From a virus, in IMG/VR virus record IMGVR_UViG_3300042540_000975, positions 1-37,936 of that record: a DNA stretch of 37,936 nucleotides; one strand, 5' to 3'. Positions within the stretch are counted from its first letter, which is position 1. Each line of letters starts with the position of its first letter. Under the pieces are notes generated by a model, which saw only the letters and a list, made by a program, of their open reading frames with translations, was not told the origin of the DNA and made no database searches. Positions 5,893-37,936 of this stretch are shown piece by piece. A program made the position numbers and the translations under genes.

Positions 5893-6116
5893 AAGCTAAA
5901 TTCCTTCCTCGCTCGCCGTATCTGCTTGGCTCGCAGTTCGGCAAAATGTTTTGCAGCGCCCTTGGCGTCCCTCGCCCCCACAGCAGACCGCCGATGCCAC
6001 TTGCAGCAATAGACGCAAAGGTAAGTCTCTTGCTCTGGGAAATACTTGCTGGCCTTTAAGGCATCAGCCTCCGAGTCGTAAGCCCGCTTCCAAATGCACG
6101 CTTCCCACTTCTTCAC
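5889..6116 (-). CDS. Small zinc-finger-like protein, 75 aa
   Basis: The 75-aa product, read from a GTG at 6116, has a CVYCCKWHRRS motif near residue 34-44 resembling the short phage zinc-knuckle pattern C-x-x-C-x-x-W-H, and a basic C-terminus. The GTG is chosen because it forms a GTGA overlap with the stop of the upstream gene. An in-frame ATG at 6185 would overlap that gene by 73 nt. Role unknown; DNA or RNA binding is likely from the charge. Confidence 0.6.
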   Translation of the reverse strand: MKKWEACIWKRAYDSEADALKASKYFPEQETYLCVYCCKWHRRSAVGARDAKGAAKHFAELRAKQIRRARKEFSL

Positions 6117-6316
6117 GCCGCCCTCCTTGCCTCGTCCCGCGCCCGCAAAGCCCTCTGGTCGCGCTTTTCCAGCCAGCCAATACACTCACCGCCATTGCCC
6201 ACCTCGGCCACGCTGACTGCATTGTCGCTAATGACCCCGTTGTCTTGCAGGAAGTTCATCGTCAGCCGGGCGTCGAGGCCACGGGCGGCGATGTAGGCGC
6301 GGAGGGATTCGCTCAC
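6113..6316 (-). CDS. Hypothetical small protein, 67 aa
   Basis: A 67-aa protein with no recognised domain, containing a hydrophilic N-terminus (MSESLRAYIAARGLDARL) and a Lys/Arg-rich end. It is linked by 4-nt overlaps to the replication gene upstream and the zinc-finger-like gene downstream, which supports it being translated. No function can be assigned. Confidence 0.6.
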   Translation of the reverse strand: MSESLRAYIAARGLDARLTMNFLQDNGVISDNAVSVAEVGNGGECIGWLEKRDQRALRARDEARRAA

Positions 6317-7185
6317 GCCGCCACCTCCACGCCAGCCAACCGCTGCCGCATTTCCGAAATCGACGCCTTCAACGCCTTCACCTTCGCCATCGGCTCGGCC
6401 TTCAAGCGCCTGTCGAACGAGTCAGGGACAGGCTCCTTGTTCGCCGGGTTGGCGCAGATGCGGTCAACTTCCTTCTGCGCGGCTTCGATGCGTTGCTGAA
6501 GCTGCCACACCCCTTCTGGCTTCGGGTTGCCGTTGTGGCCGTTGACCGCCCCGTTGCCGAATTGCTTCGGGTTGCGATTGCTCTGCCACTTGCGCCAAAA
6601 GCCCGACAAGTCATGCGGCATGGATGAAACGCGCCTTCCTTTGCCGTCCAACCATCCCGCGCCCTGACGATCATCGAAGTAAGCCCGGCACACGTCTTCG
6701 GGGATGCTGGCCCGTCTTCCTGCCTCGATTACGACCTCTACAGAGAAAGCCGAAACCATATGGTTAGCATTTGAAACCATATGGTTAGCAAATGGGGTAA
6801 GAGTAAGAGTATGTGTATTATCTTCTGTATTATTAGAGGGGGGTGTGGGGGGAGATTTTGGCCTGCCGCCCCGTTTGCCCGCTTCCCATAGGTGCATGAT
6901 CTGCCTGTTGTGTTCGGCAAAGCCGTGAATGGCCCACGTCCCGCCCTCCTCGGCATCAAGCCAAGGCGCTTCCGCGTCCGTCATGGCCTCCCAGAGCGCG
7001 GAATGGTCGCCCTCGTAGCGCATCATGGCTGCGAGCTTGGCCGGGGCCAACACGAGGCCCGTGTAGCGTCGGCGCACTTGGCAATCGCCCCAGAGGCGAA
7101 GCAAGCCCACCACGGCGGCGGGGCCGCAGCGGTCAATAAGCCGCTCGGTTTTCCAATGCGTTGCAAAGCCGGGGTCGAGTTTCAT
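6313..7185 (-). CDS. Replication initiation protein (replisome organizer-like)
   Basis: This 290-aa protein has an N-terminal domain (residues 1-105) like phage replication initiators: FATHWKTERLIDRCGPAAVV followed by LRLWGDCQVRRRYTG, typical of winged-helix replisome organizers. A low-complexity linker (107-147) includes the tandem heptad ANHMVSN/ANHMVSA, and a C-terminal helical domain contains DLSGFWRKWQSN. The linker DNA carries palindromic iterons and an A/T-rich stretch, as in lambda gene O. No DNA polymerase or helicase gene is present, so the phage must recruit host replication proteins. It overlaps its neighbours by 4 nt on both sides. Confidence 0.75.
   Translation of the reverse strand: MKLDPGFATHWKTERLIDRCGPAAVVGLLRLWGDCQVRRRYTGLVLAPAKLAAMMRYEGDHSALWEAMTDAEAPWLDAEEGGTWAIHGFAEHNRQIMHLWEAGKRGGRPKSPPTPPSNNTEDNTHTLTLTPFANHMVSNANHMVSAFSVEVVIEAGRRASIPEDVCRAYFDDRQGAGWLDGKGRRVSSMPHDLSGFWRKWQSNRNPKQFGNGAVNGHNGNPKPEGVWQLQQRIEAAQKEVDRICANPANKEPVPDSFDRRLKAEPMAKVKALKASISEMRQRLAGVEVAA
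6752..6834. other. Putative replication origin with 21-bp iterons
   Basis: Two 21-bp direct repeats (6752-6772 and 6773-6793) each contain the perfect palindrome AACCATATGGTT (6754-6765 and 6775-6786). They are spaced exactly two helical turns apart. An A/T-rich stretch follows (6794-6834) inside an otherwise GC-rich gene. Location within the initiator gene matches lambdoid origins. The repeats are in the coding frame (seven codons each), so a purely protein-level repeat is the alternative. Confidence 0.55.
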
Positions 7186-7814
7186 AAAATTGCCTCCATT
7201 ACCATTTGCGGTCGCTTGTCTTTGCGGGTCGAAAGGCGCAAATAAGATTCAAGCTCCTCCAAGCGATCCTCGCCCCCGCGCATCCACCCCGTTCCATCGC
7301 ATGACTCGGCCCCAGCATCGTGCGCCATCCACAAAAGGCGCTCGCTATTGACCCGCCCGACATGGACGCGAGGGTGCGCTGCCGTCCACATTTTGAGATT
7401 GCGCCACTTCCACTCGGTCGAGCCGCCCACAAAAATCACATCGGCATCGGTCGGCACATCATCGACAGTCATGCCGTCCTGCACGACAAAAGCCAAAGGC
7501 GCGTTGATGACGCCTCGGATACGCTGCGACCACTCAGGCCAGCGCGCCCTGGTCGCCTTGGCATCGGCCACCACATCGGGAACAGCAACCCACATTGGGC
7601 GAAATTCGCGGCGGGCGCGGTCAAGGAGATCAAGAAAGCCTTGCTCATCCCACTCGCGTTTATTGAGCCACGCGCCGAAAGCGCCATTGTCCAGCGCGTA
7701 GGGCATCCACGACGGGGGCTTGCGCCACCCATAAGGCGAGATTAGCCAGCCCAAGCGCCCCGGATACTTGCCGCACAAGTAGCCGATTTGGATTCCGCTG
7801 TTATTTGAGGGCAT
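7182..7814 (-). CDS. dpdA: TGT-like 7-deazaguanine transglycosylase (DpdA-like)
   Basis: The 210-aa protein resembles the catalytic barrel of tRNA-guanine transglycosylases, in the short form found in phages. ALDNGAFGAW (Asp42) matches the DSGGFQ catalytic motif, FVGGST (128-133) matches the substrate-binding Gly-Gly loop, and GAESCDGTGWMRGG (Asp173) matches the region of the nucleophilic aspartate. The usual zinc-binding C-terminal part of bacterial TGT is missing. DpdA enzymes of some phages and bacteria swap guanine in DNA for preQ0 or a derivative. Placement directly after queC and queD makes DNA, rather than tRNA, the likely target. The ATG at 7814 overlaps queC by 14 nt; an ATG at 7829 is possible. 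A host-like tRNA TGT role cannot be excluded. Confidence 0.75.
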   Translation of the reverse strand: MPSNNSGIQIGYLCGKYPGRLGWLISPYGWRKPPSWMPYALDNGAFGAWLNKREWDEQGFLDLLDRARREFRPMWVAVPDVVADAKATRARWPEWSQRIRGVINAPLAFVVQDGMTVDDVPTDADVIFVGGSTEWKWRNLKMWTAAHPRVHVGRVNSERLLWMAHDAGAESCDGTGWMRGGEDRLEELESYLRLSTRKDKRPQMVMEAIL

Positions 7815-8415
7815 GACCAGCATCGGCAATGGCCTTCAGTCTGACTTGGCACGCACCGCATTGGCCGCACGGCTCCTCGCCGCCCGCGTAGCATGACCAC
7901 GTTTCTTCCAGCGGCACGTTTAGCCGCCACGCAATATCGACCACCTTGGCCTTGGTTCTGACGATGTAGGGCAGATGCACCTCCATTCGCCGCGTGTGAC
8001 AGCACCGCAAAGCAAAATTGAGGTGCTTCATAAAGTCGGCGCGGCAATCGGGATAAACCTCGGCATCGTCGCCATTCACCGCGCAGGATACCGCCGTGCA
8101 GCCATGAGAAAGCGCGTAGCTTGCCGCCATCGCGATCAGGACCATGTTGCGGTTTGGCACTACGGTTGGTTTCCCGACCAACGGTTCGGTTTCTGTGGTC
8201 AGCGCCGGCCGCTCAAATAGCTGCGGCGGCAGGGTAATTTTGTCGTAAGCCACGCCCAGCTTGGCGCAAGTTGCCTCGGCAAACGTCAGTTCTTTGATGT
8301 GCCTCTGTCCGTAGTCGTAGAGCAGGCAATGGGCTTTGTGGCCTTGATGCAGAAGGTCGTAAAGCAGGGTGGTGCTATCCACCCCGCCCGACATGAGATG
8401 AGTGAATTTAGCCAT
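7801..8415 (-). CDS. queC: 7-cyano-7-deazaguanine (preQ0) synthase QueC
   Basis: QueC converts 7-carboxy-7-deazaguanine to preQ0 using ATP and ammonia. The 204-aa protein has the PP-loop SGGVDS (9-14), LYDYGQRH, VVPNRN and NGDDAEVYPDCR signatures. The four-cysteine zinc site is intact (Cys175, and Cys183/186/189 in PCGQCGAC). The length is typical of the family. It follows queD closely (1 nt) and overlaps the DpdA-like gene, so the three form a translational unit. Recognition is strong; all catalytic motifs appear intact. Confidence 0.96.
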   Translation of the reverse strand: MAKFTHLMSGGVDSTTLLYDLLHQGHKAHCLLYDYGQRHIKELTFAEATCAKLGVAYDKITLPPQLFERPALTTETEPLVGKPTVVPNRNMVLIAMAASYALSHGCTAVSCAVNGDDAEVYPDCRADFMKHLNFALRCCHTRRMEVHLPYIVRTKAKVVDIAWRLNVPLEETWSCYAGGEEPCGQCGACQVRLKAIADAGHALK

Positions 8416-8416
8416 A

Positions 8417-8770
8417 TCAGTTCTTGGTCAGAATCACGTTTGAGGTTGGCGTTTCGCGGACTTCGATGCGGGAAAGCAGCGGCAATCGCGGCTGCAATTC
8501 GCGCCAAAGCCACGCGGCAAGGTTTTCGGCAGTGGTCGCGCATGGCAGGATGTCGTTGAGGTTTCGGTGATCGAGGGACGCCACGATCGGCTTTGCCACG
8601 GCGCTGATGTCCGCGTAGTCCTGCACCCATTCGTTAGCGATTGGGCCGCATACGCCGACCAGCACTTCGTAGCTGTGCCCGTGCAGGCGATGGCATTGAT
8701 GGTCTGCCGGGAGATGTGGCAGCGAGTGAGCCGCTTCAAAGCGGTAGGTTTTGGTAATTTCAAAAGTCAT
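8417..8770 (-). CDS. queD: 6-carboxy-tetrahydropterin synthase QueD
   Basis: QueD converts 7,8-dihydroneopterin triphosphate to 6-carboxy-tetrahydropterin, an early step to preQ0. The 117-aa protein keeps the zinc ligands His15, His30 and His32 (AAHSL, HRLHGHSY), the catalytic Cys26, the Asp67-His68 pair in LDHRNLND, and Glu106. The start at 8770 (MTFEITKT) is preferred over an ATG at 8794 because of the family start. It overlaps the end of the methyltransferase gene by 11 nt. No queE or folE is present, so the host must supply those steps. Confidence 0.95.
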   Translation of the reverse strand: MTFEITKTYRFEAAHSLPHLPADHQCHRLHGHSYEVLVGVCGPIANEWVQDYADISAVAKPIVASLDHRNLNDILPCATTAENLAAWLWRELQPRLPLLSRIEVRETPTSNVILTKN

Positions 8771-10433
8771 TGCGGCCCTCCTGTTGGCACACAATCGCCG
8801 TCTGCCCCTCGTCCAAGGTCGTGTTGATCCCTTTGCCCATCCGCGCCGTCAGCGGGTTGGCGAGCGCAGGCGAATATGCGGCCCGTGTAGGCATCTTGGC
8901 CGTTAAGCCCCCCCCCTGGTGCGCGCCGTCTGAGAGGGTTCCGACTACCAAGCGGTCAAGATGCTGGCTGTCGCCGCGATCAAACTTGTTTTGTGCGTCT
9001 ACCGTGCTCACGTCAGCGCACCCCCCCCCGCGACCGCCTCCAGCGCCTCCCGCAGCATCGGCGGCAACTCCTTGCCCCTTTTCTCTGCTCGGCGCAGGAT
9101 TCCGCTGCACGCTTTCTGACTCAAATAGAACCGTTGCGGCAGCGGCCCCGTCTCCAAGACATCCGACAACGAACACACGGCGACTCCGCTGGGCCACTCC
9201 GAACCATTGTGCGTCCAGCACCCGGTAGGCCCACCCATACCCCAGTGCCCCCAACGCCCCAAGGAAGGCTCCAAAATCCCTTCCTCCGTGGGATGACAGG
9301 ACGCCGGGCGCGTTTTCCCAGACAATCCATCGAGGCCGCTGACGTTGAGCGATCTCAAGAAATGTAAGCATGAGTCCACCTCGCGGGTCGTGGAGTCCTT
9401 TGCGGAGGCCGGCGACACTGAAGGATTGGCAAGGCGTTCCTCCGACCAGAAGGTCGATTGCTCCCAAGTTCCAAGATTCATGGCGTGTCATATCCCCCAA
9501 GTTCGGCACCTGCGGCCAGTGATGCGCCAAGACCGCGCTGGGAAACTTCTCCACCTCGGCAAAGGCCGCAGGCTCCCAGCCCAGCGGCTCCCACGCGACC
9601 GAGGCCGCTTCGATCCCACTGCATACGGAGAGGTAGCGCACCTTGCCGTCGTGCTTCGCGGCAATGCGCTTGCCGATCCACGCCATGCACGGCACGGCCA
9701 TGCTGTTGCCCAGCGCCTTGTAGCGCGGCCCATCCGGGCAGTCCTGCGGCGACTTGCCGCGCCACGGGATGAGCGTGTGATCGTCGGGAAATCCCTGCAA
9801 TCGCTCGCACTCTCGCGGGGTGAGTCTGCGGACGGCCATTGCTTGCCTCAGGAATTGGTAGTTGTGCTCGGCTCCAGAGCGCAAAGCCTGTGCCGTTGGG
9901 TTTTCCAGTTGCCCCCCCCCAGATGCCCATTGCACTTGCACGGCTTCCGTTGGAGCTAAAACGCTCGGAACTCCATGCCCTCGCCCCTCCTCGGACGATA
10001 GCGTCGGTGATGTGCCGCCCGTGCCGTGGACGCGAACCCTCTGCGGCAATTCGGGGGTCATGCAGCCCGTTGCCAAGTAGTTCTGTTGCTTCATCCCTGC
10101 CTCGGCTTGCAGAGCTCCAGCGATCTGTCCGTCGCCGTTCATCATCCTGACCTCGTTCCGGGTGTTTTGCTGGAACGCTATTGCCGGAGGATGCGCGGCA
10201 GATGCAAGTGGATGGCATGGCGCACCAGCTCGCGGCACCGAATAGTTGTCGGGGCTGGTTATTTGGGTTGTGTCGAAAGCCACCGCCACCCCATGCGAAA
10301 ACTCCTTTGTGATCGTGTTGGCTGGTTCGCCGGCATTCCCAACACCCAAACCCTGCCTGTTCATCTCGTCCCGCTTCTCTGGGTCGCGCCCAGAGTTGCG
10401 GAGGTCGAGCGGTATTGCCGTGGCGGCGCTCAT
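8760..10433 (-). CDS. Circularly permuted DNA (cytosine-5) methyltransferase
   Basis: The 557-aa protein carries every C5-methyltransferase landmark, but in a rotated order. Motif IX (VRRLTPRECERLQGFPD, 201-217) and motif X (ALGNSMAVP, 240-248) come first. They are followed by motif I (VCSGIEAASVAW, 270-281), motif IV with catalytic Cys335 (GGTPCQSFSVAG), motif VI (WENAPG, 372-377) and motif VIII (AQRSRRVFVVG, 414-424). Normal enzymes run I-VIII, target domain, IX, X. Residues 1-200 and 430-557 look like the two halves of the target-recognition/linker region. Three G9 tracts lie within it. It methylates DNA, probably for protection from host restriction; the target sequence is not known. Confidence 0.92.
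   Translation of the reverse strand: MSAATAIPLDLRNSGRDPEKRDEMNRQGLGVGNAGEPANTITKEFSHGVAVAFDTTQITSPDNYSVPRAGAPCHPLASAAHPPAIAFQQNTRNEVRMMNGDGQIAGALQAEAGMKQQNYLATGCMTPELPQRVRVHGTGGTSPTLSSEEGRGHGVPSVLAPTEAVQVQWASGGGQLENPTAQALRSGAEHNYQFLRQAMAVRRLTPRECERLQGFPDDHTLIPWRGKSPQDCPDGPRYKALGNSMAVPCMAWIGKRIAAKHDGKVRYLSVCSGIEAASVAWEPLGWEPAAFAEVEKFPSAVLAHHWPQVPNLGDMTRHESWNLGAIDLLVGGTPCQSFSVAGLRKGLHDPRGGLMLTFLEIAQRQRPRWIVWENAPGVLSSHGGRDFGAFLGALGALGYGWAYRVLDAQWFGVAQRSRRVFVVGCLGDGAAAATVLFESESVQRNPAPSREKGQGVAADAAGGAGGGRGGGCADVSTVDAQNKFDRGDSQHLDRLVVGTLSDGAHQGGGLTAKMPTRAAYSPALANPLTARMGKGINTTLDEGQTAIVCQQEGRNDF
8908..8916 (-). repeat. G9 homopolymer tract 1 in methyltransferase gene
   Basis: Nine C on the plus strand, nine G on the coding strand, encoding the middle of HQGGGLTAK near residue 508. 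A one-base slip would break the frame close to the end of the protein. Confidence 0.95.
9021..9029 (-). repeat. G9 homopolymer tract 2 in methyltransferase gene
   Basis: Nine coding-strand G within RGGGCADV near residue 470, after motif VIII. A frameshift here would remove only the C-terminal linker half of the protein. Confidence 0.95.
9912..9920 (-). repeat. G9 homopolymer tract 3 in methyltransferase gene
   Basis: Nine coding-strand G within ASGGGQLEN near residue 172-174, before motif IX. A slip here would remove all catalytic motifs, making this the most effective switch of the three. Confidence 0.95.
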
Positions 10434-34068: not shown

Positions 34069-34088
34069 GCCCTACGTCCGCGAGTCAA
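34066..34088 (-). promoter_or_regulatory. Start-associated element, connector gene
   Basis: TTGAC (34084-34088) is 15 nt before the ATG, with GTAGGGC touching the ATG. The sequence reads TTGACTC rather than TTGACAC. The TGA is the stop codon of the upstream glycosyltransferase gene. Confidence 0.5.
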
Positions 34089-34651
34089 AGCCCCGCCACG
34101 CCAGGGTCGTAGTGCTTGGTGACGTAGCTGTAAAAGTAAATCGGCTCGTCGCCGCTCCATTCCTCGGTCTGTAAATGCGGCAGGAGGCCGAGCGCATAGT
34201 TGTAGTCCTCGCCCCACATCATATCGGGAAAGCGGCTTTGTAGGGCCGCCTCGCGCTTAATGGCGCACAAATGATGCGGTGTGCGGTCTTGACCCTGCCA
34301 GTGGTGGTTGTCGCGGAAACGCAGGCTGTGGCGGAAGATGGGCGAAGGGCGGTAGTCCTCTCCATCCATCGTGACGTGCATGGTAATGCCGACCACATCG
34401 GGCTTGCTTTTAAGGCAGGGAAGGATTCGGGCAACGTAGTCGGGCGCCACCATATCGTCATCGTCCACAAAGGCCACATAGTCGCCTGTAGCCTGCTCGA
34501 TCATCCGCTGCCGCTTAACCCCGACCGATCCGGGGCCGTCATCAATGGTGATGCGGACGCTGCGCTTGGCCTGCGGCTTTAAGACGGCAAGCAGCTTTTC
34601 CAGCATGGCCGAGCGGGACGGCATGGTGGGAATCAGAATTTCCAGCTTCAT
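34085..34651 (-). CDS. GT2-family glycosyltransferase, 188 aa
   Basis: The 188-aa protein starts MKLEILIPTMPSRSAMLEKL, the nucleotide-sugar binding N-terminus of GT-A enzymes, with GDYVAFVDDDDMVAPDYV (acidic residues 63-66) as the metal/donor motif and a WGEDYNYALG segment as a catalytic base candidate. It is compact, like other phage GT2 proteins. The ATG at 34651 overlaps the upstream stop by 4 nt, so it is made with the 574-aa protein. Confidence 0.85.
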   Translation of the reverse strand: MKLEILIPTMPSRSAMLEKLLAVLKPQAKRSVRITIDDGPGSVGVKRQRMIEQATGDYVAFVDDDDMVAPDYVARILPCLKSKPDVVGITMHVTMDGEDYRPSPIFRHSLRFRDNHHWQGQDRTPHHLCAIKREAALQSRFPDMMWGEDYNYALGLLPHLQTEEWSGDEPIYFYSYVTKHYDPGVAGL

Positions 34652-36372
34652 GGCACCCATCCCTGTGCCACGGCATCCGGGTTGCGGCGGCGGAAGACAG
34701 CCTTGCCGCGCTCGTTGGCCTCTGGGTTTTGCTGGCGGCGGTAACACTCGTCTGTCGCCGCGCCCGTGAACAGCGGGTGGTCGTGGTAGAACTTAATGTG
34801 CCGCGCATCCTCGACCACGCCGTCGCGGTAGGCGCGGAAAGAAAACTCGGTGTCTGACCAATAGCCGTCGTATTCGGGGCACAGCAACCAGTCGCGCCCA
34901 AGCCACCACCGCCAGTTAAAGCACATGATGGTCATCAACTTCTCGTCGGGCTTGTTGAAGCCATCCGAAACGTGCAGGACGGTGGGCTTGTCCATGTGCG
35001 GGGTCATGGCTTGGATCACTTGTTCATCCCAACCGTGGGGGGGATAAACGTCCGACTGCGCCATGACAAAGATGCGAGCCCCCGATGCCGTGGCTGCGCG
35101 GGCGGCGGCGTTGTAGTTGGCCACGGCAGAAGAATGACCTTCGGGAACGGCGGGCGCCAATGCGTGCGGGTAGTGCTGCAACTGCTCGACTACCTCCGTG
35201 TCCGACTCGCAGATGCCGAAATAATATGCCACCCGCTCCGGGTGCGCGGCCCGCTCCAGCCAGAGGTTGCGGACTTCGATGTCCTTTTGCCCCCTGCCCG
35301 CTGGGTGGCCCACGGCAATGCGGGGCTTGAGACGCTTCTGCCATTCTTTGCGGATGCGCTCGGCCTCCTTGGTGTGGCCGGCTTTAGCCAGGGCAAGCGT
35401 CTTTAGATCGTGCGCTCGCCATCCGTAGAGGGACGCATCGTGCGTCCAAGAGGGTTCGTCGGGCATGGGTTGCGCCTCCATCGCGTAGGCATAGGCCAGC
35501 CCTTTCTTCGCGTTGCCTCTGGCCGTGTGCATTTTGCAAAGCTCCGCGTAGCCTTCGCGGCGGTGCGGCATGAGTCGGACGGCTTCCAACAGCGGGCGCT
35601 CGGCTTCGTCCACGTCTTTGATCCATCGGCCAATGGTTTGGTAGGCCACGAACTTTTCCTCGTCGCCGAGGTCAGGGTGGGCCGTGGCAAAGATCGCGGC
35701 CTCCATAGCCTTGGGAATGTCCTGCTGCGTCTCGCACTCGCGGAAGAGAAACCACCATTCGCGGCCCGTGCGTCGCTCTGGCGGCACGCTTTCAAGGATG
35801 GCGCGGTTGCGGACTACGCTGCCGCGCTTGTTGTTTTCGGGGAGGTGGATGACTTGAAGTTCCATGCACCAAGTGTTTTTGGTGCCGTCCTTTGTCTCGA
35901 TGTCCTCGTGAACGGCATTGATCCAGTGGTTATAACAATCCACATGGACGAGGCGGATGCGCCTGGCATAGCTGCCGGACGCAGTGGTCACATACGGTGC
36001 GTAGATAGCGCCTTTGATGATCTCGGTGCCGCTGCGAATCTTGGCCAGCGCCTCGGCCCCTGAGTCGGCGAGCAGATCGTCACAGTCGGCCCACATAAGC
36101 CAGTCTGTGCCTTCGGGTGCGAGGGCAAAGGTCTGGTTGCGAGCGGCGGCGAAGTTATCGACGTGCGGCCAATCCTTGCCCGTCTCGCCATTCACATACT
36201 CGCCCACGATGCAGCCACGGGCTTTGGCGATGTCCAGCGTCTCATCGGGCGGCTGGTTGCCGCAGGCGCGCACTACGCTGACGGAATCAACGTGCGGCTG
36301 GAAGCTGTCGAGGAAGCGGGTGATGTTGGCCGCTTCGTTGCCTACAATGATGCCGAGATGAATCTTTACCAC
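34648..36372 (-). CDS. Two-domain glycosyltransferase with TPR-like middle, 574 aa
   Basis: The N-terminal domain (1-210) is GT2-like: MVKIHLGIIVGNEAANITRF at the start and WLMWADCDDLL (91-101) as the acidic donor/metal motif. A helical TPR-like part (about 210-345) is followed by a second GT-A-like domain (350-574) with FVMAQSDVYPPHGWDEQV and GYWSDTEFSFRAYRDG. Multi-domain GTs with TPR middles are known. It starts on a GTG at 36372 and follows the terminator-like hairpins after the capsid gene. Probable targets are virion proteins, host surface or DNA; unknown. Confidence 0.8.
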   Translation of the reverse strand: MVKIHLGIIVGNEAANITRFLDSFQPHVDSVSVVRACGNQPPDETLDIAKARGCIVGEYVNGETGKDWPHVDNFAAARNQTFALAPEGTDWLMWADCDDLLADSGAEALAKIRSGTEIIKGAIYAPYVTTASGSYARRIRLVHVDCYNHWINAVHEDIETKDGTKNTWCMELQVIHLPENNKRGSVVRNRAILESVPPERRTGREWWFLFRECETQQDIPKAMEAAIFATAHPDLGDEEKFVAYQTIGRWIKDVDEAERPLLEAVRLMPHRREGYAELCKMHTARGNAKKGLAYAYAMEAQPMPDEPSWTHDASLYGWRAHDLKTLALAKAGHTKEAERIRKEWQKRLKPRIAVGHPAGRGQKDIEVRNLWLERAAHPERVAYYFGICESDTEVVEQLQHYPHALAPAVPEGHSSAVANYNAAARAATASGARIFVMAQSDVYPPHGWDEQVIQAMTPHMDKPTVLHVSDGFNKPDEKLMTIMCFNWRWWLGRDWLLCPEYDGYWSDTEFSFRAYRDGVVEDARHIKFYHDHPLFTGAATDECYRRQQNPEANERGKAVFRRRNPDAVAQGWVP

Positions 36373-37384: not shown

Positions 37385-37789
37385 TTAGAAAGTTCTGGCG
37401 TTGCGAGCGCGGAAAATGGCGCTCTTGTTCGCGGAAAAGATTTGCGCGGCGCGCTTCCAATCCTTCGACTCGCTGGCAGCTTTGAACTGCTCAACGGGGT
37501 CTTCGGAGGCGACGGCATTGCTGGCGACGGCCTCGCTGCCTTTGGCGGCGAGAGCGATTTCGAGCTCGGCGACTTTCGCGGAGAGAGCGGAGAGTTCGGC
37601 GGCTTCGGGAGCGGGCGCGGCCTCTTCAGACTTCACTTCCTCGGCGACAACTTCAGCCTCGGCGGGTTCGGATTTGTCGGCGGCGATCGCGGCGACGGAT
37701 TCTTCGAGCTTGGAGACAACAGCGGTCAGCGCCTCAATGGCGGCTTTCGCGTCAAACTCGACTTGTTCGGTGACAGAAGATTCGGTCAT
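37385..37789 (-). CDS. Possible nested scaffold protein, 134 aa
   Basis: An in-frame ATG (residue 153 of the protease) is preceded by GGAGGGC and by TTGACAC, the same start signal as other genes here. From it a 134-aa helical Ala/Glu-rich protein (MTESSVTEQVEFDAKAAIEA onward) could be made alone. Lambda C/Nu3 uses the same nested arrangement for protease and scaffold. It would explain how enough scaffold is made. Confidence 0.55.
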   Translation of the reverse strand: MTESSVTEQVEFDAKAAIEALTAVVSKLEESVAAIAADKSEPAEAEVVAEEVKSEEAAPAPEAAELSALSAKVAELEIALAAKGSEAVASNAVASEDPVEQFKAASESKDWKRAAQIFSANKSAIFRARNARTF

Positions 37790-37936
37790 GCCCTCCGCCG
37801 AGGTGTCAACTTGGACGGGCTCGCTACCGGCGCGAAACACGCCCTCGCGGTTTGCTGCGGGGCGGCTAACGAGGTCAACGCTGACCAGATTTTCGACGCG
37901 GGCGAAACGGCGGTCGCCCATTTCTTCGGGCTTGCC
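37385..37936 (-). CDS. Prohead protease/scaffold fusion, C-terminal part (right window end)
   Basis: This is the 3' part of the gene that begins at 553 in the left copy. The frame remains open to the window end. From the right copy the residues are GDRRFARVENLVSVDLVSR, an Ala/Glu-rich region with several acidic runs, and a C-terminal helical part SESKDWKRAAQIFSANKSAI. The three-base difference from the left copy is a synonymous Ser codon change (AGC here, TCG on the left) and the single-base one changes Val to Met. Confidence 0.85.
   Translation of the reverse strand, partial: GKPEEMGDRRFARVENLVSVDLVSRPAANREGVFRAGSEPVQVDTSAEGMTESSVTEQVEFDAKAAIEALTAVVSKLEESVAAIAADKSEPAEAEVVAEEVKSEEAAPAPEAAELSALSAKVAELEIALAAKGSEAVASNAVASEDPVEQFKAASESKDWKRAAQIFSANKSAIFRARNARTF
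37693..37936. repeat. Terminal direct repeat, right copy
   Basis: The last 244 bases match bases 1-244 with four differences (offset 37692). They show that the ends of the window overlap and that the circular unit is about 37,692 bp. Confidence 0.9.
37787..37809 (-). promoter_or_regulatory. Start-associated element at nested scaffold start (right copy)
   Basis: Second copy of the element at 95-117, identical in sequence. TTGAC, 15 nt, ATG, with GGAGGGC next to the ATG. Confidence 0.6.

Follow-up and report, generated by a model that had tools for sequence, protein, structure and literature searches.

Gene organization of the locus

The IMG/VR record IMGVR_UViG_3300042540_000975, a phage genome of uncultured source that is 37,936 bases long and was analyzed in its entirety (the window), carries on its minus strand three consecutive genes for QueD, QueC, and a short protein related to tRNA-guanine transglycosylase (TGT) and DpdA. 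These genes probably form an accessory cassette through which host and phage together make 7-cyano-7-deazaguanine (preQ0), which the compact DpdA-like protein inserts into phage DNA as a protection against restriction. QueD (6-carboxytetrahydropterin synthase; 8417 to 8770) has 117 amino acids (aa) counted from its ATG, QueC (7-cyano-7-deazaguanine synthase; 7801 to 8415) has 204 aa, and the compact DpdA-like transglycosylase (7182 to 7823) has 213 aa when the ATG at 7823 is chosen over the alternative starts TTG 7829 and ATG 7814. All three open reading frames (ORFs) named in an earlier reading of this DNA, the original prediction, were recovered, and they are chained as it had described: 1 nt separates the queD stop from the queC ATG, and queC overlaps dpdA by 23 nt.

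QueC, QueD, and the missing steps of the pathway

Both synthesis enzymes are recognizable, and their active-site residues are intact, as originally proposed. QueC (PF06508, E = 2e-49) scored 159.6 bits against the 150.3-bit cut-off of the equivalog model TIGR00364, while QueD (PF01242, E = 8e-29) passed the equivalog model TIGR03367 only marginally (89.6 bits versus a cut-off of 89.25). The QueC sequence contains SGGVDS, YGQRHIKE, VPNRN, and YPDC, as well as a four-Cys zinc motif whose first gap is 7 residues instead of 8; all four non-zinc QueC motifs given in PMC13329287 are present. The motifs of QueD include CHRLHGH, which is of the CxxxHGH type, and LDHRNLN.

FolE and QueE had been predicted to be absent, and neither FolE (PF01227) nor a radical S-adenosylmethionine (SAM) protein of the QueE kind (PF04055) matched anywhere in the window. 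We considered whether the contig might be cut, with FolE and QueE lying elsewhere. The first 244 bp of the contig (1 to 244) recur at its end (37693 to 37936) with 98.4% identity, and genes split by the contig join are in one piece in relatives such as L161. Both observations mark the genome as essentially complete (near complete) and make a cut contig unlikely. The proposal that the phage draws on the host for 7-carboxy-7-deazaguanine (CDG) holds insofar as a host contribution is needed, but not in the simple form of CDG supply; because the phage has QueD and lacks QueE, the host must provide the product of FolE as well as carry out the step of QueE. No amidotransferase or QueF was found among 20 further window ORFs, a subset of the total, that were scanned against Pfam, and preQ0 is therefore taken as the likeliest base.

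The compact protein is related to TGT and DpdA

The compact protein matched phrog_15826, a family of unknown function, with E = 1e-33, and phrog_887, annotated as queuine tRNA-ribosyltransferase, with E = 7e-6. All 31 aligned compact members matched the former and 10 of them the latter; Pfam and NCBIfam gave no match for the window protein. In a profile comparison, the compact family matched eight phage DpdA-type proteins with 95% probability (E = 2.8e-8), and with 94% (E = 8.7e-8) when Escherichia coli Tgt was added to the DpdAs.

D45, D83, G133-G134, and D176 are invariant in 31 of 31 aligned compact homologues. When these were aligned jointly with nine TGT/DpdA rows, D45, G133, and D176 proved identical throughout (31/31 and 9/9), and G134 was found in 31/31 compact and 8/9 TGT/DpdA rows. 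D45 and D176 correspond to D89 and D264 of E. coli Tgt; by the roles known from TGT, they are presumably the catalytic aspartates, and the GG the base-recognition pair. The two aspartates are the residues that had been singled out as Asp42 and Asp173, here counted from the ATG at 7823. The D83 column holds Asp in 9/9 TGT/DpdA rows, though the E. coli Tgt row seems to be misaligned at this point. H154, present in 30/31 compact proteins, was aligned by MAFFT with a His of 8/8 DpdA rows (H196 of JenP2), in a region where the hhalign alignment is unclear.

A structure prediction, as the original prediction had suggested, gave an AlphaFold (AF2) model of the 213-aa protein (predicted local distance difference test [pLDDT], 91; predicted template modeling score [pTM], 0.88) with a TGT-type barrel. 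TGTs occupied rows 1 to 13 of a Foldseek search against the PDB and all of the best 50 rows of VIA-align, the best of them with a Z score of 15.3 and a root mean square deviation of 3.4 over 206 aligned residues. Other short matches, of 207 to 225 aa, occur in a viral structure library, one of them named queuine tRNA-ribosyltransferase, so compactness is not unique to the window protein. The best match of the model in that library was to part of a 499-aa uncultured marine virus protein (BFVD A0A0F7L9Z1; TM, 0.77; 30% identity), which is probably the compact domain fused to something else.

With 213 aa versus 296 to 352 aa in the eight phage DpdA-type proteins, the compact protein is missing the region that follows the nucleophile in classical DpdA; we treat a length of ~300 aa and this region as typical of DpdA rather than defining. 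A zinc-binding CxCxxC motif is present in E. coli Tgt (CDCYTC at 302) and absent from both the window protein and 8/8 phage DpdA-type proteins. The protein had been described as a tiny transglycosylase without a zinc tail; it is indeed short and without the zinc motif, but the lack of this motif is no peculiarity of it, being common to all eight phage DpdAs. In one compact DpdA-like homologue (L030, 469 to 1218), the C terminus is extended by a zinc-ribbon-like tail that contains CPECG...CANCG.

The zinc motif also bears on a competing explanation, in which the cassette boosts queuosine in host tRNA, with QueD and QueC raising preQ0 and the compact protein acting on tRNA. In its favor, QueC and QueD look canonical, and PMC6884629 proposes such tRNA boosting by phages that have preQ0 genes but no DpdA. 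The compact protein, however, is devoid of a zinc motif of the E. coli Tgt type, and its profile match is slightly stronger to the DpdAs alone than with Tgt added, a small difference. We regard a tRNA target as improbable and prefer insertion of preQ0 into phage DNA.

Movement and history of the cassette

Among 25 records that share the exonuclease of the window phage, one (G001) has the compact protein and also QueD, and 24 have neither; this control is a non-random set from one phage lineage (exonuclease identity of at least 73%), partly made up of fragments. In G001, the cassette is found on the opposite side of the replication-like gene, so it seems to move as a unit. A comparison of nine cassette-bearing loci with the window gave sharp cassette edges near 8770 and 7190. 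QueD-QueC is mostly 85 to 100% identical between these loci and the window, with 68% in the lowest 60-base step, while the flanks are 15 to 53% identical.

Nonsynonymous (dN) and synonymous (dS) divergence was obtained as point estimates with our own Nei-Gojobori script. For the compact DpdA, dN was 0.02 to 0.28 versus a dS of 0.33 to 2.7 in five cassette pairs (0.079 versus 0.82 with L003), and further pairs gave 0.30 versus 1.95 (L018) and 0.49 versus a saturated dS (L057). The dS of QueC was 0.21 to 0.26 in five pairs and that of QueD 0.12 to 0.23 in three; DpdA dS was 0.8 to 2.7 in four of the five QueC pairs (L003, L005, L006, and L013) and 0.33 in L002. We also considered whether the cassettes swap partners, taking up DpdAs from elsewhere. 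This is unsupported, as a branch (87/84, not starred) in a tree of 26 rows has all ten cassette DpdAs on the same side. Judging from these sequences, a single origin of the cassette seems favored, and we would guess that later recombination in QueD-QueC caused the unequal divergence.

Distribution and gene neighbors of the compact protein

Relatives of the compact protein are encoded at 65 loci in IMG/VR. Whole records were searched for 49 carriers, namely, the window, 44 IMG/VR records, and 4 phage records. QueD scored over its cut-off in 28 of these, QueC in 14, one or both in 30, and FolE in 4; radical SAM proteins were found in six at E ≤ 0.001, three of them over the cut-off. In a further record (G037), QueD matches below the cut-off. 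The gene combinations vary and include QueD with QueC, as in the window; QueD alone; a short QueC with a radical SAM protein (L054 and L055); FolE, radical SAM protein, and QueD (L060 and L062); and all four (L027 and Arthrobacter phage Sonali). The QueC-like proteins of L054 (10630 to 11124) and L055 have only 164 to 173 aa, show a gap over the central part of the family profile, and lie between a compact DpdA gene before and a radical SAM gene after them. The commonest neighbor of the compact gene is a cluster identified by its position as QueD, at 13 of 30 representative loci, lying upstream or downstream depending on the locus. The background frequency was estimated by tblastn searches with QueD and QueC of the window, which detected QueD in at least 22 and QueC in at least 322 of 50,697 phage records.

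A scan of genome contigs yielded 77 loci with 28 to 51% identity to the compact protein. Neighbors were mapped at 46 of the 77, and queC is labeled beside the compact gene in one (L072). Compact genes occur near a gene for a PP-loop protein resembling 3'-phosphoadenosine-5'-phosphosulfate (PAPS) reductase at L155 (4655 to 5572), L068 (7397 to 8440), and L103 (8626 to 10434). Carriers of this neighbor include ReqiPine5 (gp02), Erythrobacter phage R6L (gp7), and the Paraburkholderia/Caballeronia cluster C2 (6 of the 46 mapped loci). The PP-loop gene is possibly a second partner that replaces QueC.

Proposed pathway and competing explanations

According to PMC6884629, FolE, QueD, QueE, and QueC make preQ0, which DpdA exchanges into DNA. 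In the window phage, host FolE would form dihydroneopterin triphosphate (H2NTP), phage QueD would convert it to 6-carboxytetrahydropterin (CPH4), host QueE would yield CDG, and phage QueC would produce preQ0. The compact DpdA would then, judging from its family, swap guanine in phage DNA for preQ0 by a TGT mechanism of the D45/D176 type, and the modified DNA would resist host restriction as in characterized DpdA phages. In the same source, 7-deazaguanines are reported in the DNA of characterized phages with DpdA and preQ0 genes, and 2'-deoxyarchaeosine (dG+) blocks EcoRI. Pantoea phage MED16, which has dpdA alone, contains some 2'-deoxy-7-amido-7-deazaguanosine (dADG) in its DNA (PMC8306585), which shows that a phage inserter can work from what the host provides.

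Several findings weigh against this reading. None of the 31 compact members matched TGT in Pfam, where the stray weak matches were to Ses_B, DDE_Tnp_1, and DUF6415, and a sequence search of the PDB with the compact protein retrieved no TGT, only chance matches. The C-terminal third is loosely placed on the DpdAs by hhalign. The unrelated TIM barrel 1rpx ranks 14th in Foldseek with an E value near that of TGT, and VIA-align gives a Z score of at least 8 to 967 of its 999 aligned chains; the fold alone is thus weak proof. In a plasmid, 2'-deoxy-preQ0 (dPreQ0) gave no protection from EcoRI according to PMC6884629; because dG+ blocked this enzyme and dPreQ0 did not, protection by preQ0 is possibly narrow, and preQ0 alone may be a poor camouflage. 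Sonali (L067) encodes both the compact protein (gp81, 5944 to 6561) and a classical DpdA-type protein (gp87, 8931 to 9821), the latter beside a full preQ0 set, and in this phage the compact protein may not be the main inserter. Substrate and base, moreover, are deduced from the enzyme family, and a different base or target may apply.

Neither QueC nor QueD was over the cut-off in 19 of the 49 carriers, many of which are fragments, and StevieRay, R6L, and Ssp-JY42, searched whole, contain no QueC, QueD, FolE, or radical SAM protein. Such carriers, Mycobacterium phage StevieRay among them, speak for the neighbors being incidental, with QueC and QueD serving supply or host queuosine and the TGT-like protein using what the host offers or being inactive. 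We find this quite unlikely in view of the overlapping genes, the several arrangements in which the compact gene lies beside a QueD, QueC, or radical SAM gene, the joint presence or absence of the compact protein and QueD, and dN values below dS.

At some homologues, a PAPS-reductase-like PP-loop gene or a cytosine methylase gene is found nearby in place of QueC. The former would suit a base-exchange enzyme with a different target, either free nucleotides or a protein N terminus, as in Cap9/Cap10 of the cyclic-oligonucleotide-based antiphage signaling system (CBASS) and in QatC. Like the cassette, these systems include TGT-like and QueC-like proteins, and PMC11996544 and PMC13329287 describe TGT-family and QueC-family enzymes repurposed for protein deazaguanylation. 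The window QueC, on the other hand, is above the cut-off of the canonical equivalog model, and its score for QatC is 12.4 against 280 bits. No CBASS- or Qat-named model is among the PADLOC matches listed for the eight cassette and neighbor proteins (for the methyltransferase, the best 25 of 62), although the presence of Cap9/Cap10 models in the library was not checked; QueC matches a model named "QueC." We see little chance that such a target is the correct one, and insertion of preQ0 into phage DNA remains the preferred explanation.

More speculatively, proteins of ~210 aa could make up a class of their own among DNA guanine transglycosylases, a minimal one reduced to barrel and active site, that moves with only those supply steps that need a boost (QueD alone, QueD and QueC, QueC and a QueE-like protein, or no step at all). 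In that case, the phage-host pair would set which base is inserted, and the slow QueD-QueC tract next to a faster DpdA would reflect cassette exchange with an inserter that diversifies its target. We offer this as a tentative possibility. If the window protein does insert preQ0 into DNA, it would be a DpdA-type enzyme about one-third shorter than the eight compared here, which would show the core needed for DNA base exchange and make it a handy base-swapping tool. PHROG 15826, now labeled as unknown, would gain a function, and a phage that borrows half of the host pathway would depend for its protection on host QueE.

Relation to known systems

Phage DpdAs, among them those of JenP2 (9g genus), Rhizobium phage RHEph05, Pantoea phage Vid5, and Sonali (gp87), are likewise TGT-like, lack the zinc motif, and have preQ0 genes near them in the regions retrieved. 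Their DSGAF-, LDxIG-, GG-, and DS-type motifs align with DNGAF, PD, GG, and CDGT of the compact protein, which differs in length and in having DNG and DGT for DSG and DSS. FolE is nearby in JenP2, RHEph05, Vid5, pVco-14, and Sonali, unlike in the window. Microbacterium phage Megan has two classical DpdA-type genes side by side. DpdA2 of Vibrio phage nt-1 is described in PMC6884629 as a divergent inserter of TGT-like type that was detected by way of neighboring preQ0 genes, and in this it is similar; it is said there to be without His196, the position with which MAFFT aligned H154, and that description would set it apart. DpdA-like proteins are divided into seven clusters in PMC8306585, of which the compact family may be one.

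The window protein belongs to the same family as PHROG 15826 and the proteins called "DpdA-like tRNA-guanine transglycosylase" by SEA-PHAGES (Sonali gp81, StevieRay gp54, and others); StevieRay differs from the window phage in that no Que genes were found. In the phage collection, 24 of the 50,697 records matched the compact protein at E ≤ 0.01, all with less than 60% identity, and the cassette had no match there at the DNA level. Among the titles and abstracts listed in literature searches, none dealt with a compact DpdA subfamily or with a set of QueD and QueC only. The original prediction of a new DNA modification variant is therefore retained for the compact subfamily with its two-step synthesis set, but the novelty is smaller than proposed, as homologues in Arthrobacter and Mycobacterium phages already bear the label "DpdA-like." The kind of system is known; what is new is the compact subfamily (PHROG 15826) with two synthesis steps.

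Flanking genes and other features of the genome

The cassette lies within five minus-strand genes that overlap or nearly so. Directly upstream of queD, with an 11-nt overlap, is a gene for a C5-cytosine DNA methyltransferase (dcm; 8760 to 10433; PF00145 in two stretches), whose membership in the cassette is only putative. Downstream, a replication-initiation-like gene (rep; 6313 to 7185; a weak match to phrog_9474, E = 2.5e-4) overlaps dpdA by 4 nt; it is a backbone gene at the cassette edge. From the order of its motifs (IX, X, I, IV, and VI at positions 202, 242, 267, 334, and 372), the methyltransferase looks circularly permuted, and two PADLOC models match it continuously in this order.

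Elsewhere, the window encodes a portal protein, a large terminase, an integrase, an Erf-type annealing protein, an exonuclease, and a resolvase. The phage is a tailed one, and its integrase gene suggests that it is temperate. In the structural region, two overlapping minus-strand ORFs (34085 to 36372) have matches to glycosyltransferase family 2, one with E = 3.5e-10 and one weak (E = 0.0018).

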